From Candidatus Schekmanbacteria bacterium (GTDB taxonomy: Bacteria > Schekmanbacteria > GWA2-38-11 > J061), in the NCBI GenBank assembly GCA_016219965.1, contig JACRJM010000014.1, forward strand, positions 70,146 to 134,145: a stretch of 64,000 nt of DNA. Direction: 5' to 3'. Position 1 is the stretch's first letter, and each line of letters opens with the position of its first letter. Below the pieces are notes generated by a model, which did not search any database, was not told the origin of the DNA, and saw only the letters and a list, made by a program, of their open reading frames with translations. Of the stretch, positions 6,539-40,448 are shown piece by piece. The position numbers and the translations under genes were made by a program.

Positions 6539-7852
6539 TTAAAACAGATTAAACACAATCCCTGACAGCAGTTTCGGATAGAAGAAGGTAGATTTCTGAG
6601 GCATCTTCAAACCCTTTTCCGCCACCCTTTTCACTCCATCAGCAGGTGTCGGATTTAGAAGGAAAGCCGCCTGATAATTACCCTCTTTGAAATGCTTTAT
6701 TGTAAGCCCGCCTCCCTTAACATACTCGATGTTGGTCTGGTTTTTAAGGCTCTCTTCATCTATGCCAAGCACCTTCTCAAATATAAGCTTGTGGAGGATT
6801 GAGACATCGAGCTCTTTCAATTCAACAGGAAAACCAGGCTCAAAACAGCTGTCAGCAACAGCCCTTGATTTTAAGCCTGCAATAAAATAGCCTTTCTCAC
6901 CCTCAAGGGCAACTCCGAAAGAAGGAGTCTCCTTCCCCTTTTCCGCGACAAGCTTTGAAAGGGTTTCAGCATCAGTTCCCTCTGCAACTGGAGTGATGTT
7001 GAAAAGCTCTCCCATTTTTTTAAGCACATTCTTTGAGCTAAAATCTTTAACCGAGTGAATAAGCCTGTCAATGGGAAGCACCACAAGCCCTTCATCTTCA
7101 GTGTTTACGAACATCATGGTCACATAATCGAAAGGTTCATTTCCGTTATTTTTGCCTGTGCTTTTTCTCATCTCATTCCTGTAGTTCACTGCTGTCTCAT
7201 AGCGGTGATGACCGTCAGCAATGAAGAGGTTTTTCTCAGCCATGGTTTTACGCACCTCTTCAATAACCTCAGGGGAACTTACCTGCCAGAGCCTGTTAAC
7301 AAGACCACTGGGGTCGATAAAATCAAATACAGGTTTTGAAGGTTTTCCTTTCTCAAGAAGTCTATCTACCTTTCTTTCTGAATCAGTATAAAGAGAAAAA
7401 ACCTGACAGAGATTCCCCTTACATGCCCTCATTAAATTAAGCCTGTCTTCCTTGGGCTTTGCCAGAGTGTTCTCATGAGGAAATATGCTCCCCTTTCCCG
7501 GCTCGTCAAGCTTCACAAGAGCTATAAAACCTTTCCTGACCTTTCTTGAACCATCGGGAAGGGTAAACTCCTGTTCATACAAATAAATAGAGCTTTCTGA
7601 CTGCTGAGTGATTATCCCTTTATCTACCCATTCTCTAAGGAACGCAGCTGCACGGGTGTATTTGTTGTTATTTTCGCTGTCTCCCTGATTTTCCTTTCCC
7701 AATATGAGCCTTACTACATTGCAGGGATCAAGACGGTATAACGCATCCTGCTCCTCAGAGTTTATAACATCATATGGCGGGGCTACCACTTTTGAAGGTT
7801 CAACCATGCTGCTGTTGTAGACATATCCTTTGAAAGCTTTAATTTCCGGCAT
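6539..7852 (-). CDS. DUF1015 family protein
   Basis: The 437-residue protein matches the DUF1015 family over its full length: N-terminal KAFKGYVYN, VVAPPYDVI, DPCNVVRLILG, then SIFPHENTLAKPKEDR, the highly conserved ADGHHRYETA and a C-terminal LHKLIFEKVLGI. The family is soluble, widespread in anaerobes and often near serine or amino-acid metabolism genes; its reaction is not established to my knowledge. The start is followed 3 bases away by the end of the upstream TPR/periplasmic-binding gene, suggesting one transcript. Confidence 0.85.
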   Translation of the reverse strand: MPEIKAFKGYVYNSSMVEPSKVVAPPYDVINSEEQDALYRLDPCNVVRLILGKENQGDSENNNKYTRAAAFLREWVDKGIITQQSESSIYLYEQEFTLPDGSRKVRKGFIALVKLDEPGKGSIFPHENTLAKPKEDRLNLMRACKGNLCQVFSLYTDSERKVDRLLEKGKPSKPVFDFIDPSGLVNRLWQVSSPEVIEEVRKTMAEKNLFIADGHHRYETAVNYRNEMRKSTGKNNGNEPFDYVTMMFVNTEDEGLVVLPIDRLIHSVKDFSSKNVLKKMGELFNITPVAEGTDAETLSKLVAEKGKETPSFGVALEGEKGYFIAGLKSRAVADSCFEPGFPVELKELDVSILHKLIFEKVLGIDEESLKNQTNIEYVKGGGLTIKHFKEGNYQAAFLLNPTPADGVKRVAEKGLKMPQKSTFFYPKLLSGIVFNLF

Positions 7853-23604: not shown

Positions 23605-24024
23605 TCAGTCTTCCTCAGGATATGTATAGGTAATGCTGAAATCATCAACTGATTCGAGGTAATCATAGACTCTTTTTCCATTTTTTGTAAGCCAGCTGTG
23701 ACCATCAAGCTTTCCGTCATCTTTCTTCACGGCAAAATGTATTTTCACTTTCATCCCGTATCTGTTGAGCAAATGGTAAAGAAGAAGAGATTTTCTAAGG
23801 CATGACGGAGTAAAAACAAAAAACCGAATTCCAAGTATGGAATCAGTAATCTTCAATATCCTCTCTATAACCCTGTCATCCATCTTCTTTTTTTTTCGAG
23901 GGGTAAGCAGTTTCAGCAAGCGCGGCAGGCTAAGACTCTTCAACAATAACGGAAGAGCAAGCACAAGCAGGAATATTTTAAAGAAAAGAATTACATTTGT
24001 TATCAGTAATGAGAGGCGGTTCAA
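23605..24024 (-). CDS. Lasso-B2-like transglutaminase-fold protease (RiPP maturation)
   Basis: The 139-residue protein has two N-terminal hydrophobic stretches (about 5-40) and then the Transglut_core3 fold used by B2 leader peptidases. The nucleophile region is FTPSCLRKSLLLYHLLNRYG (Cys75), followed by DGHSWL (His109) and an aspartate near 121 (VYDY), a Cys-His-Asp triad. B2 proteins remove leader peptides from precursors presented by a PqqD-like domain. It is the last gene of a minus-strand cassette with radical SAM, HPr-kinase-like and PqqD-like genes, 7 bp after the radical SAM gene. Confidence 0.75.
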   Translation of the reverse strand: MNRLSLLITNVILFFKIFLLVLALPLLLKSLSLPRLLKLLTPRKKKKMDDRVIERILKITDSILGIRFFVFTPSCLRKSLLLYHLLNRYGMKVKIHFAVKKDDGKLDGHSWLTKNGKRVYDYLESVDDFSITYTYPEED

Positions 24025-24031
24025 TTCGCTC

Positions 24032-25057
24032 TTAATCCCTGTTCCAGGGGTTCTTGGGGTCTTTCTTCAGCCAATTCAGCTTTCCAAAATACTTTGCACA
24101 ATAAAAACAGGGGAACCTGTCGAGTGAGCCTACGGATTTACTGCTTATCAGGGACACCCTGTCTTTCTGAAATTCAGCAATCTTGTCTATCAGCATCTTG
24201 TGCGCATCAAAAAGGCTCACCTTGGAAAGATTTGCAATTACATCTTTGTTCGCTTCCCCTCCTGCATATCCTGAAAGCTGGCAGCAGAACATGAGGTTTC
24301 CCATGAAATCCACTGTCAGAGAAGACATCCTTAAAGCTCTGCACTGGAACATAAGCTCGGGAACATCAAAGCCCGGCGAGAGGAAAATGCCGATTGAAAA
24401 AACGCCTGCCATTCTTACAATTTCGGCAGCTACACGGGTTTGCTCCTCAGGGGTCGGAACAAGACCTTCCCTTACATTGCCGGGAGTAGGCTGTATAAAA
24501 GCAAAAAAGAGCCTTTCTGCCTTTAGCTTCGATGCAAGCAAAGCCATCTCATCGAGCTGGTCAATATTCTTGTTACAAATAGTCATCTGAAGGCTGAAAG
24601 GGATTTTTTTAAGGAAACACGCGCTGATGGCAGACATGACCCGTTTATATGAGCCTTTGGCCCTTATTTCGTCGTGCACTTCCTCGCGGGGACTGTCAAT
24701 GCTGAACGAAAGTCCTTTCAATTTTCCTAAACCGTTCCTTTCGAGGATAGGGAGCACGTCGAGGAAATTCCATGCATTTGTAACAACATGGTAAGTGAAT
24801 CCGTGAGTCACAACTTCTTTTATGATTTTCTCAAACTCAGGATGCAGAGTAGGCTCTCCGCCTGTGAAGGCTATGTGCTTTATACCGTAGACTTTCGCTT
24901 CCTTTAGTATCTTTTTTATAAGTTTAAATGATATGTTCCTGCGGGGAAGCCTCTCGTCCCTTAAACAATGTTTACAAACAAAATTGCAGCGGTTTGTAAG
25001 TTCAATCCCAAGTTCCGTGAGAAAAGCCATGTCATCCGGCATATCAGCACTCCCCAA
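24032..25057 (-). CDS. Radical SAM protein of a RiPP-type cassette
   Basis: The 341-residue enzyme binds the SAM iron-sulfur cluster through C24-C28-C31 (CNFVCKHC), followed by the conserved GGEPTLHPEF. Further cysteines in the C-terminal part (FQCRALRM, LMFCCQLSGY, FPCFYCAKYF) suggest extra iron-sulfur clusters of a SPASM-like domain, as found in peptide-modifying enzymes. It overlaps the HPr-kinase-like gene by 14 bp. The true start may be an internal ATG (MAFLTELGIELTNRC). The modification made is unknown; thioether or C-C crosslinks are typical. Confidence 0.8.
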   Translation of the reverse strand: MGSADMPDDMAFLTELGIELTNRCNFVCKHCLRDERLPRRNISFKLIKKILKEAKVYGIKHIAFTGGEPTLHPEFEKIIKEVVTHGFTYHVVTNAWNFLDVLPILERNGLGKLKGLSFSIDSPREEVHDEIRAKGSYKRVMSAISACFLKKIPFSLQMTICNKNIDQLDEMALLASKLKAERLFFAFIQPTPGNVREGLVPTPEEQTRVAAEIVRMAGVFSIGIFLSPGFDVPELMFQCRALRMSSLTVDFMGNLMFCCQLSGYAGGEANKDVIANLSKVSLFDAHKMLIDKIAEFQKDRVSLISSKSVGSLDRFPCFYCAKYFGKLNWLKKDPKNPWNRD

Positions 25058-26045
25058 AAAGTTCTTTTTTTATCATAGAGACTACAGAGTGCGGGCTCTT
25101 TATAAGATCAGCTCCGCTTCTCATCCTGTAAGATTTCGATTTCTCCACAATTTTTTTTAATGCAGCAAGATGCATCGGAGCAATATCTTTGTCCATCATC
25201 ACAAGCAGACTGCTGGGTATCAATCTTGCCAGAGCCTCGGCCCTGCCAAGCGGAATTAGAGCTGACTTTTCTTCTCCTGTTATTTCCGGGAAAAGAATGA
25301 ATCCCTGCTTTGCTTCAAGGACGAACTGTTCCGGATAAACATCCTCCGCCCTGAAAGAACGCTTTGGCCCATCCCCGTATTTCCTTGCATTCTTTACCCT
25401 CTCAAGCTCCTCAAATCTTTCGGAGATTGCAGGATCTATATGAAAATCCCCTGGCAGAGACAATATCCTCACATTTTCCCCTTCATCCTTTAAAAGCACT
25501 CCATCGTCTGAGAGATACTTGCATCCTTCGCGAAGGAGCGTTATGCACAAAGTCGACTTGCCCACCCCTGTATCTCCGGAAATCAGCACGCCCCTGTCTC
25601 CAACAGATACACATGAGGCATGGACATAGTATAGCCCTCTGTATCTTAACATCTCAACAAGCATAATATAAAAAAATATAAAAGAAAAAAATCTTCTTAT
25701 CTCTATCGTCTTGAGGTTGAGGTAAATATCAGCAATTCCCCTGTCCGGATAGCAAACCGCAGCGGAATGGCCGTCAACAAGAATAAGCCTTTCTCCAACT
25801 CTATAGCCCGTTAATCTGTCAAAAGCAAAAAGCTGCTCTATCCCATCCAATTCTTTCATGACTTTTTCAATAGACTCACCATCAGATTTTAAGATTGAAA
25901 TCCTTATAGAGCCTGCCTTCTCATCAGCCGCTGTTGCAGAGAAAAAACCTATTATATCATCAACAAGACCAATCACATCTTCCTGGTCAGTAGTGACTGT
26001 AACCGGATTGCCATAGATCAGATAGGACTTTTCAATCATAGGCAT
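25044..26045 (-). CDS. HPr-kinase-like P-loop protein of a RiPP-type cassette
   Basis: The 333-residue protein has a P-loop, GDTGVGKST at 157-165, preceded by YVHASCVSVGDRGVLI and followed by CKYLSDDGVLL, the layout of HprK/P C-terminal kinase domains. Genes of this type sit next to PqqD-like and B2-like genes in peptide-natural-product clusters, where some phosphorylate the peptide; others have no assigned role. It overlaps the radical SAM gene by 14 bp and lies 41 bp after the PqqD-like gene. Confidence 0.8.
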   Translation of the reverse strand: MPMIEKSYLIYGNPVTVTTDQEDVIGLVDDIIGFFSATAADEKAGSIRISILKSDGESIEKVMKELDGIEQLFAFDRLTGYRVGERLILVDGHSAAVCYPDRGIADIYLNLKTIEIRRFFSFIFFYIMLVEMLRYRGLYYVHASCVSVGDRGVLISGDTGVGKSTLCITLLREGCKYLSDDGVLLKDEGENVRILSLPGDFHIDPAISERFEELERVKNARKYGDGPKRSFRAEDVYPEQFVLEAKQGFILFPEITGEEKSALIPLGRAEALARLIPSSLLVMMDKDIAPMHLAALKKIVEKSKSYRMRSGADLIKSPHSVVSMIKKELFGEC

Positions 26046-26086
26046 ATTATGAGTTATAAAATGAAGTTAAAAAATTTCTAAAAAAA

Positions 26087-26371
26087 TCAAACGGAGGCTT
26101 TAAAATTGATAAGTTTATTTCCATTAAGCTCTTCCAGCAGCCTTACGACACTTTTCATCGCATTCTGGGGAGTTACATCAAACTTGCTGCATATATTTTC
26201 GACTATACCATCCACTTTAATCACTCCATCAATAAGACCCCATATGACAAGCGCTACTTCATTGAGTCCGTAATAACATTTTGTATTGAGATCAAGAAGA
26301 ACAGCCTCTTCATCTAATTCAGTGCAAAGGATAGATGGATTCTTAACTGGAATAGTATTTTTAGTAATCAT
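26087..26371 (-). CDS. PqqD-like peptide-recognition (RRE) protein
   Basis: The 94-residue protein has the PqqD pattern: N-terminal strands, LDEEAVLLDLNTKCYYGLNE, VALVIWGLIDG and a C-terminal winged-helix segment VVRLLEELNGNKLI. PqqD-like proteins bind precursor leaders and present them to radical SAM and protease partners. It is the first gene of the four-gene minus-strand cassette. No precursor gene is visible in the 156 bp upstream or within the cassette. Confidence 0.85.
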   Translation of the reverse strand: MITKNTIPVKNPSILCTELDEEAVLLDLNTKCYYGLNEVALVIWGLIDGVIKVDGIVENICSKFDVTPQNAMKSVVRLLEELNGNKLINFKASV

Positions 26372-37546: not shown

Positions 37547-37660
37547 TCAGCTCCCCGGATTAAAGCACTGTGGTATTATGCAAGTTGACTGATTCGGTCC
37601 TGCCCCTGTATCACTCTTGCAAACTCCAAGCACAGCTTCTTCAGGAACGAGGTGAAGCAT
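37547..37660 (-). pseudogene. Leader-truncated copy of the Cys-containing precursor-like peptide
   Basis: The frame encodes a 37-residue peptide MLHLVPEEAVLGVCKSDTG followed by AGPNQSTCIIPQCFNPGS. It matches the last 34 residues of the peptide at 38880-39035 with two substitutions, but the YxxP leader half is missing and no ribosome binding site precedes the ATG. Over the 34 shared codons, 14 differ synonymously and 2 change the residue, so the copy was under protein-level selection until recently. Unrelated DNA starts where the leader should be. Confidence 0.7.
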
Positions 37661-37883: not shown

Positions 37884-38807
37884 TCAATGTATGTCAGGCC
37901 AAGAACCTGCAACTCGCTTCAAAGTTACATTTTTAGGCGAATCCCATTTTATCTCAAATGCAACTATAGGGTGTTGTGAGTTTTCTACCGCTTTCTTTAC
38001 AGTTGATTCCACTAATTCAGCCACAAGACAGCCAATCACTGGCTTTCCGTTTGCAAGGTTTTGTATATAAGGACTTGTGAGGTAGCGTGCAATCTGTTCT
38101 TCTACGTGGATTGGTTGCGCACGTCCTTGTTTCACCTCAAATATTATTAAACCTTCTGATACTTTATCTTGAAGCAGAATATCTATTAATCCTGTTTCCA
38201 CTCGAACTTGGCGGTCTATCACGCGAATCTTTCTTCCTAAAGAATGCTCATCTAAGTTTTCCATAAGCCATCTTTCTATATCAGCTTCTTCACTAAAACC
38301 CGGATATTTTTCTGGATGACCTCTACGACCTTTCCGTGGTGCGTGAATATCAAGATATGGCAAACATGCTTTGATTGCTTTCTCAACATAGTCTACAGGC
38401 ACTTCTATATTGCTTGCATTTCTGTATTTTTCTACTTCAAACGGAATATCTGATTGCTTTAATACGTGGCGATAGTGTTTTCTGAATAAAACTTTTTTTA
38501 CATCAGTGCGAGAGTTTGGATTTGTTGGTGAATTTTTATTTAGTACCATCAAACATAATTCATTAGGTACTCGCCCAAAGGATAAATATTCCGCACCATC
38601 TCCCATTGGTTCACGCTTGCTTGGCTGGGGATGACCATTCTGTATGAGGCTGACTAATCCATTTTGTAGAGCAATTTCTATTATTTTTATTACCTGCTGT
38701 GTAAGTCGCCATTCTTTTGCAACATAAGCATCACCGCCTTGACTTATGAGCAATCCCCTGTCAACTTGCTCGATTGTTAAGTCGTATTTTTCCCAAATTC
38801 TTTTCAT
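37884..38807 (-). CDS. NucS-like nuclease-domain protein
   Basis: From ATG 38807 (preceded by GGGGCAGG) the protein is 307 residues. The C-terminal part has an EADIERWLMENLDE helix followed by RKIRVIDRQVRV, GLIDILLQD and GLIIFEVKQGRAQP, the D...ExK active-site arrangement of NucS-like endonucleases (PD-(D/E)xK fold). The N-terminal half is helical and unrecognised. NucS enzymes act on branched or mismatched DNA; this one sits alone in an accessory island, so a defence or repair role is open. Confidence 0.7.
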   Translation of the reverse strand: MKRIWEKYDLTIEQVDRGLLISQGGDAYVAKEWRLTQQVIKIIEIALQNGLVSLIQNGHPQPSKREPMGDGAEYLSFGRVPNELCLMVLNKNSPTNPNSRTDVKKVLFRKHYRHVLKQSDIPFEVEKYRNASNIEVPVDYVEKAIKACLPYLDIHAPRKGRRGHPEKYPGFSEEADIERWLMENLDEHSLGRKIRVIDRQVRVETGLIDILLQDKVSEGLIIFEVKQGRAQPIHVEEQIARYLTSPYIQNLANGKPVIGCLVAELVESTVKKAVENSQHPIVAFEIKWDSPKNVTLKRVAGSWPDIH

Positions 38808-38879
38808 ATTGACCTGCCCCAAGTTATTATTTCGCATTTAAAGTAGCATTTTGCAAAAAGTCAATCAGTGTGCTCTCCA

Positions 38880-39035
38880 TCAACTCCCCGGATTGAAGCA
38901 CTGTGGTATTATGCAGACAGACTGATTCGGCCCTGAACCAGTGTCGCTTTTGCATACGCCGAGCACTGCTTCTTCAGGTACGAGTTTTACTTGTTTGATG
39001 GTTGGTTTCTTGTAAGCGTTCTTTATGTTATCCAT
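38880..39035 (-). CDS. Candidate RiPP precursor peptide (51 residues, three Cys)
   Basis: ATG at 39035 follows a strong AAAGGAGAAAATT ribosome binding site. The peptide is MDNIKNAYKKPTIKQVK, LVPEEAVLGVCK, SDTGSGPNQSVCIIPQCFNP then GS. The leader half contains Y8-K-K-P11, the YxxP motif recognised by PqqD-like domains of lasso-type systems. The tail holds Cys28, Cys41 and Cys46 with Gly/Pro/Asn-rich spacing. The maturation cassette at 23.6-26.4 kb has PqqD-like and B2-like proteins but no precursor beside it. The pairing is inferred. A truncated paralogue lies at 37547-37660. Confidence 0.65.
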   Translation of the reverse strand: MDNIKNAYKKPTIKQVKLVPEEAVLGVCKSDTGSGPNQSVCIIPQCFNPGS

Positions 39036-39098
39036 AATTTTCTCCTTTAGTCTTTGTCATTCAGAACAACTAAATCTGTGACCCTACACACCTAAAGC

Positions 39099-39140: not shown

Positions 39141-40448
39141 TTACTTCTTCTTTGTCTTAACCTTCTTTGCCGTCACTTTCACCTTCACTGCATCGTGCTG
39201 AGTCGGTACTGTATTACTGTCTATATCCTCAAGTTTGTACCAGTAGGTCTTCCCTGCCTTAACCTTCTTGTCTTTGAATTGATATGATGCACCCTTAGTA
39301 GAAGTGCCCTTAGCCTTTATGAGATTCTTGTTAATCTTCTGATATTCTCCGTCCTCAGACTCACTCCGCAAGATGTTGAAACCGAGGTTGTCAATTTCAG
39401 TTCCAGTTTGCCATTTGATGATGACTTTTTTATTTTTCTGGCTAACTTCAAATGAAGAGAGTTCAATTACAGTGGGATCTCCCACATACTTGATTTCATA
39501 TATTTTAAAATAACCTGTTGAAAATAATACATCTCCTACAAACAAACTTGTTCCATCATTATTAAAAGCAAGAGATATTGGTGTATTGAACCCCGAAGCA
39601 AAGATACTTGAGTTGCCATATTCATCTACTTTAAATATTGAACCGCTTCCAGAAGAGTCGTCTAATCCTCTTGAACCAACAAACAAGAATCTGCCAAAAA
39701 AGCTATTTGGGCCAAATGTTAAAGAATATGGATTATCAACATCAGTTGCGAAAGTTTCTATTGCACCAACTGCGGAAATCCTTACAATCGTATTTGTTCC
39801 AAGAGGGACAGAAGATTCAGGAGGATTTTTTAAATCTGCTACAAATAAACTGTCATTCCCAAATGAATTACCCGCTTCATCGTATCCGAAAGTCATTCCC
39901 ATTGGATATTTCAAACTGCCTGGTGTCGTCAAATTTGAAACAGTCCCTGAAGGCTCTACCTTCAAAATATTTTTTGACCATGAAGACCCAACAAAAAAAG
40001 AACCTTGAGATATGAAAGCTCCATTATGATCTCTTGTAAATGAAATTCCAATTGCACCTATATCAACATTTGAAATCAAATTGGTAATATTTCCATTATG
40101 GTCGATTTCTAAAATGTCATCTCCTCCTGGGCCACTAATTGCATTTAGGAGATAAAGCTTAATGTCACCATTTGCATCGGGACCAAAAGTTAGCCCACCC
40201 ACTGAATCGTGTAAGTTTGATACAAAAGTTGATGCTGGCTCATTTATAGGGATTTTTAATATTGTATCAAATGAACCACTGTATAACTTATTTCCAAACA
40301 TCCCTTCTCCAAAAGCAAGGGTTCCAGTACCAGAACCATTAAATTCTGCGTATATTTTCACTTCAAAATTAGGGTCATTAACTATTACTTGAGCAAAAAC
40401 GGTTGTTGCGTATAACAAAAAAACAAGTGCTAAACAATATTTACCCAT
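39141..40448 (-). CDS. Exported beta-propeller protein with C-terminal fibronectin-like domain
   Basis: The 435-residue protein has a signal peptide (about 1-19, ending VFAQ) and five to six beta-propeller-like repeats (motifs such as GLTFGPDANGDIKLYLLNAI and LFVADLKNPPESS). A C-terminal domain (from about 335) of the type ELSSFEVSQKNKKVIIKWQT followed by LGFNILRSESEDGEY is common in secreted proteins of this kind. The tail is very lysine-rich. A surface or secreted binding protein is likely; no catalytic motif is evident. Confidence 0.75.
   Translation of the reverse strand: MGKYCLALVFLLYATTVFAQVIVNDPNFEVKIYAEFNGSGTGTLAFGEGMFGNKLYSGSFDTILKIPINEPASTFVSNLHDSVGGLTFGPDANGDIKLYLLNAISGPGGDDILEIDHNGNITNLISNVDIGAIGISFTRDHNGAFISQGSFFVGSSWSKNILKVEPSGTVSNLTTPGSLKYPMGMTFGYDEAGNSFGNDSLFVADLKNPPESSVPLGTNTIVRISAVGAIETFATDVDNPYSLTFGPNSFFGRFLFVGSRGLDDSSGSGSIFKVDEYGNSSIFASGFNTPISLAFNNDGTSLFVGDVLFSTGYFKIYEIKYVGDPTVIELSSFEVSQKNKKVIIKWQTGTEIDNLGFNILRSESEDGEYQKINKNLIKAKGTSTKGASYQFKDKKVKAGKTYWYKLEDIDSNTVPTQHDAVKVKVTAKKVKTKKK

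Follow-up and report, generated by a model that had tools for sequence, protein, structure and literature searches.

A dispersed family of small cysteine-containing peptides in Schekmanbacteria: RiPP-type precursors probably matured by an enzyme cassette elsewhere in the genome

Which enzymes act on the small peptide encoded at positions 38880-39035 of the window (the whole 64,000-nucleotide stretch of Candidatus Schekmanbacteria DNA that was analysed), and where would the finished product work? A reading made from the letters of this DNA, here called the sequence-only reading, had proposed a RiPP precursor that serves as substrate of the enzyme cassette at 23605-26371, with a B2 protease of that cassette cutting the leader as in lasso peptide biosynthesis. 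The features needed at the outset are the following.

38880..39035, minus strand: RiPP-type precursor gene, intact copy, 51 aa (window DNA, genome matches, pN/pS)
39042..39048, minus strand: ribosome binding site AAAGGAG, 6 nt before the ATG of the precursor gene
39003..39014, minus strand: Y8KKP11, a motif of the RRE-binding type
38949..38984, minus strand: LVPEEAVLGVCK (residues 18-29), the signature seen in family alignments, with C28-K29 at its end
38883..38885, minus strand: C-terminal Ser51, predicted kinase target
23605..26371, minus strand: PqqD / HprK-like / radical-SAM / B2 cassette, a distinct type by blast comparison and radical-SAM tree, with no precursor-like gene detected beside it

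Translation of window:39035-38880(-) gives MDNIKNAYKKPTIKQVKLVPEEAVLGVCKSDTGSGPNQSVCIIPQCFNPGS*, of which CKSDTGAGPNQSTCIIPQCFNPGS is the core. The strong and well-spaced ribosome binding site (AAAGGAG at 39048-39042, 6 nt to the ATG) described by the sequence-only reading was borne out, and Y8xxP11, the signature segment and the three cysteines (Cys28, Cys41 and Cys46) are all present as it had them. A promoter and terminator scan around the precursor gene gave a signal no better than in shuffled sequence. The 51-codon precursor gene is real, far beyond chance, as its further copies make plain; these copies, one of them truncated and within the window, and a partner gene immediately upstream were missed by the sequence-only reading.

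The genome from which the window derives (3.58 Mb) contains 12 matches to the precursor, namely eight intact copies, two truncated copies and two scraps, spread over contigs C3, C6, C7, C14 and C15. Two to four copies are also found in each of three genomes from the same order. The eight intact copies share 71-88% DNA identity, and across their residues 11-51 synonymous divergence is near saturation (pS 0.67) while pN is 0.039, so that the resulting pN/pS of 0.058 (about 0.06) indicates purifying selection on the peptide. Near-saturated synonymous sites combined with low pN point to strong selection and imply an old, translated peptide whose form has to stay the same wherever a copy lies. A dispersed repeat or mobile element was considered and is ruled out by the same DNA identities, the near-saturated synonymous sites and the almost constant protein. 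The truncated copy in the window is as follows.

37547..37660, minus strand: second copy of the precursor, core complete, leader lost (window DNA, genome matches)

A NucS/YhcG-type nuclease gene (window 37884-38837) separates it from the intact copy. The decay of precursor copies is illustrated by a fusion on contig C6 (L038, about 7560-7690; G000:C6:27570), where a truncated copy is joined to the end of a C-terminal-domain gene, apparently by deletion.

Relatives of the precursor were detected by a scan of genome contigs in a deltaproteobacterium (L023), an Aminicenantes genome (L024) and a Nitrospirae genome (L025), and precursor profile matches occur in 41 of the 396 sampled genomes of the phylum containing the Aminicenantes genome. 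This phylum we take to be the Acidobacteriota of GTDB. The family pattern consists of [YW]xxP, 20-21 residues, CK, usually three cysteines, and a C-terminal Ser. Among full or nearly full sequences from the 396-genome sample the [YW]xxP motif is found in 39 of 39 (and in all 16 rows of precursor alignment A1), with a spacing to CK of 20 residues in 34 and 21 in five, counts that are partly built in because the search profile itself contained YxxP and CK. Exactly three cysteines, counted from CK onward, are present in 35 of the 39, and the C-terminal residue is Ser in 37 and Thr in two, a count much less dependent on the search profile. In most genomes from outside Schekmanbacteria the peptide gene is single-copy and usually adjoins its enzymes. 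Searches of the precursor peptides against NCBIfam and Pfam gave no family match (one chance match, E 0.055), and no published description of the family was found in the literature searched.

The neighbourhoods of these homologues show which enzymes accompany the peptide. At the loci in the deltaproteobacterium, the Aminicenantes genome and the Nitrospirae genome, a PqqD-type gene lies upstream, followed by a SPASM radical-SAM gene, the peptide gene and an HprK-like gene. A tblastn survey of 40 loci from the Aminicenantes-containing phylum gave PqqD, radical SAM, peptide, HprK and signal peptidase as the usual order, with an HprK-like kinase adjoining most peptide genes and a radical-SAM gene near the peptide in 35 of the 40; this enzyme is of the type named here C4a, after a cassette on contig C4 of the window genome. 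An SpI-type protease is encoded on the strand of the peptide in only 26 of 44 loci, many loci being cut by contig ends, and a B2 peptidase was found beside the peptide homologues in none of the 40 surveyed. A precursor gene beside dedicated modifying enzymes, the general mark of a RiPP system, is thus seen in the homologous loci, and the PqqD-radical SAM-peptide-HprK arrangement, being the rule in the survey, ties the [Y/W]xxP leader genetically to a PqqD-type RRE, as the sequence-only reading had supposed. NTP_transf_5 genes lie in or adjoin the cassettes of G001 (a related genome), L024 and L133, and two ABC exporters adjoin that of G001. Proteins encoded within the peptide cassettes of the deltaproteobacterium (L023:3049-4584) and the Aminicenantes genome (L024:4001-4834) matched the peptide-arginase family NF052474 with scores under its cut-off.

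Four PqqD cassettes are present in the window genome, among them the C4a cassette (L039; contig C4, 131.3-134.1 kb), which encodes a radical-SAM enzyme of 359 aa, a PqqD protein of 97 aa, an HprK-like protein of 306 aa and a protease of 157 aa that scores above the curated threshold for archaeal-type signal peptidase I. By blast, the peptide-adjacent enzymes of L023, L024 and L025 resemble those of C4a over most of their length (radical SAM 41-48%, PqqD 40-42%, HprK 33-35%), far better matches than those to the window cassette, whose radical-SAM enzyme is 25-29% identical to the peptide-adjacent ones over part of the length only. Scored against the C4a type, a peptide-adjacent gene gives 180-447 bits; against the window enzyme the same gene gives no more than 80. 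In a maximum-likelihood tree of the radical-SAM proteins, 47 rows comprising the peptide-adjacent enzymes, C4a and those of G001 and G002 form one clade (100/99), and the window type forms a separate clade (100/100). The SPASM cysteine set is full in C4a-type enzymes and incomplete in the window enzyme; the HprK-like proteins retain the His, the P-loop Lys-Ser and the Asp. C4a-type cassettes also occur in G001 and G002 (L072, L077).

The precursor is therefore to be weighed against two cassettes. One explanation makes the window cassette, at a distance of 12.5 kb, the source of the modifying enzymes, and its B2 the leader peptidase, as for lasso peptides. It has in its favour that peptide gene and cassette lie on one contig, that the window-type cassette is kept with B2 in G001, G002 and G003 (L068, L070, L074) with no YxxP precursor of its own beside it, and that G003 (70% complete) yielded a window-type cassette and four copies of the peptide gene but no close C4a-type radical-SAM gene, so that the window cassette may have a role in that lineage. 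The nearness of one copy means little, however, because the copies are dispersed over five contigs, and the window cassette was rejected as the cognate one on the type of radical-SAM enzyme, the fully supported separation in the tree and the lack of B2 at the homologous loci. The co-occurrence check set beforehand also went against the assignment to 23605-26371 and against cleavage by B2: outside Schekmanbacteria, peptide homologues were met only in neighbourhoods without B2. This explanation is accordingly judged improbable, and the call of a RiPP precursor is supported while its assignment to the window cassette and its lasso/B2 element are not. Maturation in trans by the C4a cassette is the likely alternative, a pairing that rests on relatives, because none of the peptide genes seen in Schekmanbacteria adjoins a cassette. 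No YxxP small ORF was found beside the C4a cassette, and none with a ribosome binding site beside the window cassette, which with its B2 gene in three related genomes and no recognisable precursor appears to be an orphan. The two other cassettes of the window genome have small ORFs of this kind, each probably another precursor: L041:8736-8912, at the C4:210 kb cassette, carries a ribosome binding site, a YVQP motif and a core with ...GPAQACSTTPCTVSPSGSGF, and L040:7614-7817, adjoining the C15:233 kb cassette, has a ribosome binding site, a WISP motif, two cysteines and a C-terminal Ser. Genes for a C25 peptidase and a signal-peptidase-like protein also lie in the C4:210 kb cassette (L041).

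Sequence itself establishes the gene and its family, the operons in which homologues of the peptide lie, and the orthologous relation of their enzymes to those of the C4a cassette; the course of maturation from leader binding to export is projected from relatives. The PqqD-type RRE would bind the leader at Y8xxP11, whereupon the SPASM radical-SAM enzyme would modify the core, most likely via one or more of Cys28, Cys41 and Cys46; the full SPASM cysteine set of C4a-type enzymes makes a cysteine-based crosslink plausible. The HprK-like kinase would then phosphorylate or polyphosphorylate Ser51, possibly with extension by an NTP_transf_5 enzyme where one is present, the SpI-type protease would remove the leader, and the product would exit the cell and work outside. 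The kinases PadeK, ThcoK and SyanK phosphorylate a C-terminal Ser, a site called "extremely conserved" for paeninodin-type precursors accompanied by the kinase gene (PMC9266682), and the C-terminal Ser/Thr of the present family fits phosphorylation of that kind. Leader cleavage by SpI has its model in the LPP RiPPs, which employ YxxP, an RRE, an HprK-like kinase and an archaeal-type SpI that cleaves the leader (PMC13381572).

Among known systems, LPP is similar in its YxxP leader, discrete PqqD-type RRE, HprK-like kinase and archaeal-type SpI leader peptidase (PMC13381572), the last three of which, taken here as a mark of LPP, are found together in C4a-type sets; NTP_transf_5 and ABC exporter genes adjoining the G001 cassette, and the lack of a lasso cyclase in the loci checked, add to the likeness. 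The present set differs in its SPASM radical-SAM enzyme, the word "radical" being absent from the LPP main text (PMC13381572), in its leader (YxxP..VxLxPEEAVLxxCK rather than YxxPxVLxHQxIxFETxxS, a motif not encountered in the family alignments), in its cysteine-containing core with a C-terminal Ser (the LPP phosphosite is S3), and in its occurrence in other phyla, with Schekmanbacteria precursors dispersed beside surface-protein genes. Phosphorylated lasso peptides of the paeninodin type share the RRE motif, HprK-like kinase, conserved C-terminal Ser and nucleotidyltransferase companion (PMC9266682), and the lasso combination of a [Y/W]xxP leader with a PqqD-type RRE is found in the homologous operons; unlike them, the homologues have no B2 beside them, no identified macrolactam cyclase, a radical-SAM enzyme and three core cysteines. 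No cyclase (C protein) was seen among the Pfam-scanned neighbours of five loci (L039, L072, L077, L118 and L133), and with B2 unlinked a lasso peptide was rejected. Sactipeptides and ranthipeptides likewise combine a SPASM radical-SAM maturase with a cysteine-containing precursor, but the discrete RRE, HprK-like kinase and SpI set the present family apart. PqqD-like, HprK-like (ScmC) and radical-SAM/SPASM genes also stand together in SynChlorMet (Scm; TIGR04248-04251), from which most loci differ in having one radical-SAM gene and not the ScmE/ScmF pair. In scans of the window and L024 cassettes all SynChlorMet matches, and the best NCBIfam matches of the radical-SAM proteins, fell far below curated cut-offs.

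Where the product might work is suggested by the genes beside the Schekmanbacteria copies, of which those in the window are as follows.

39141..40448, minus strand: partner gene, 435 aa, N-terminus resembling a signal peptide; same strand as the peptide gene and 105 bp upstream of it
39144-39458, minus strand: fn3-like C-terminal domain of the partner (predicted fold)

The partner at 39141-40448 has weak SMP-30/ScyD-E (beta-propeller-type) matches, and all eight intact copies in the genome lie close to, and on the strand of, a secreted-protein gene, mostly of beta-propeller type; the partners scanned with Pfam have propeller-type repeats that are SMP-30-like, RCC1, SBBP or LVIVD. Common to the partners is a C-terminal domain, some 105 residues long, that matches nothing in Pfam or among the sequences of solved structures and whose predicted model (pLDDT 87) resembles fibronectin type III domains. 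A profile of this tail found 27 places in the genome. The 17 with the highest scores are confined to clusters that contain a peptide copy or its remnant, and the other 10, which score lower, lie elsewhere; this score gap is partly built in because the profile drew partly on those same clusters. In the Aminicenantes-containing phylum, a related fn3-like domain lies within several large proteases of family C25 (gingipain/PorU) adjoining the peptide; C25 genes are near the peptide and on its strand in 14 of 40 loci, and one adjoins a peptide copy in G001 and in G002. C25 is commoner in peptide-bearing genomes (28 of 41 against 111 of 355; Fisher p 7e-6, the kinship of genomes being ignored). The literature searched offered no connection between C25 proteases and RiPP precursors.

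The recurrence of one near-invariant peptide beside varied secreted proteins that share only their tail hints at the tail as its working partner, and the co-orientation and close spacing argue that the finished peptide probably acts with those proteins. More specifically, but only tentatively, the modified peptide may be a dedicated partner of fn3-tailed secreted proteins (a bound subunit, a prosthetic peptide or an attached tag or anchor) and not a free product; each partner gene cluster would then keep its own copy. That the proteins so served are of beta-propeller type in Schekmanbacteria and are C25 proteases in other bacteria, one cassette serving all copies, is a similarly uncertain proposal. 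A somewhat stronger contender, though still short of an even chance, is a peptide matured in the same manner but released as a diffusible signal or antimicrobial, its surface-protein neighbours setting expression only and its eight copies providing dosage. RiPPs are usually diffusible, and the single, enzyme-adjoining copy of most other genomes agrees with this; the confinement of the best-scoring tails to peptide clusters and the related domain in C25 proteases beside the peptide in other bacteria speak against it. A small unmodified cysteine peptide, metal-binding or disulphide-bonded and multicopy by accident, is very improbable: an odd number of cysteines could bind metal, yet the operon position between radical-SAM and HprK genes is kept across phyla, and the RRE motif and C-terminal Ser/Thr are conserved.

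Were the peptide a partner of secreted proteins, radical-SAM RiPPs would act in cell-surface building or protease function. The layout in Schekmanbacteria is unusual, with near-identical precursors as satellites of secreted-protein genes and far from their putative enzymes, and mining by nearest gene would pick the wrong cassette for such dispersed precursors, as for 38880-39035. The combination of a discrete RRE, SPASM radical SAM, HprK-like kinase and archaeal-type SpI is absent from the papers found. The family, recognised by no NCBIfam or Pfam model used, occurs in four or more lineages and, within one phylum, in roughly a tenth of the genomes sampled, and it includes a diverged sub-branch (L147, L149 and L151) in which several radical-SAM genes accompany WxxP versions of the peptide.
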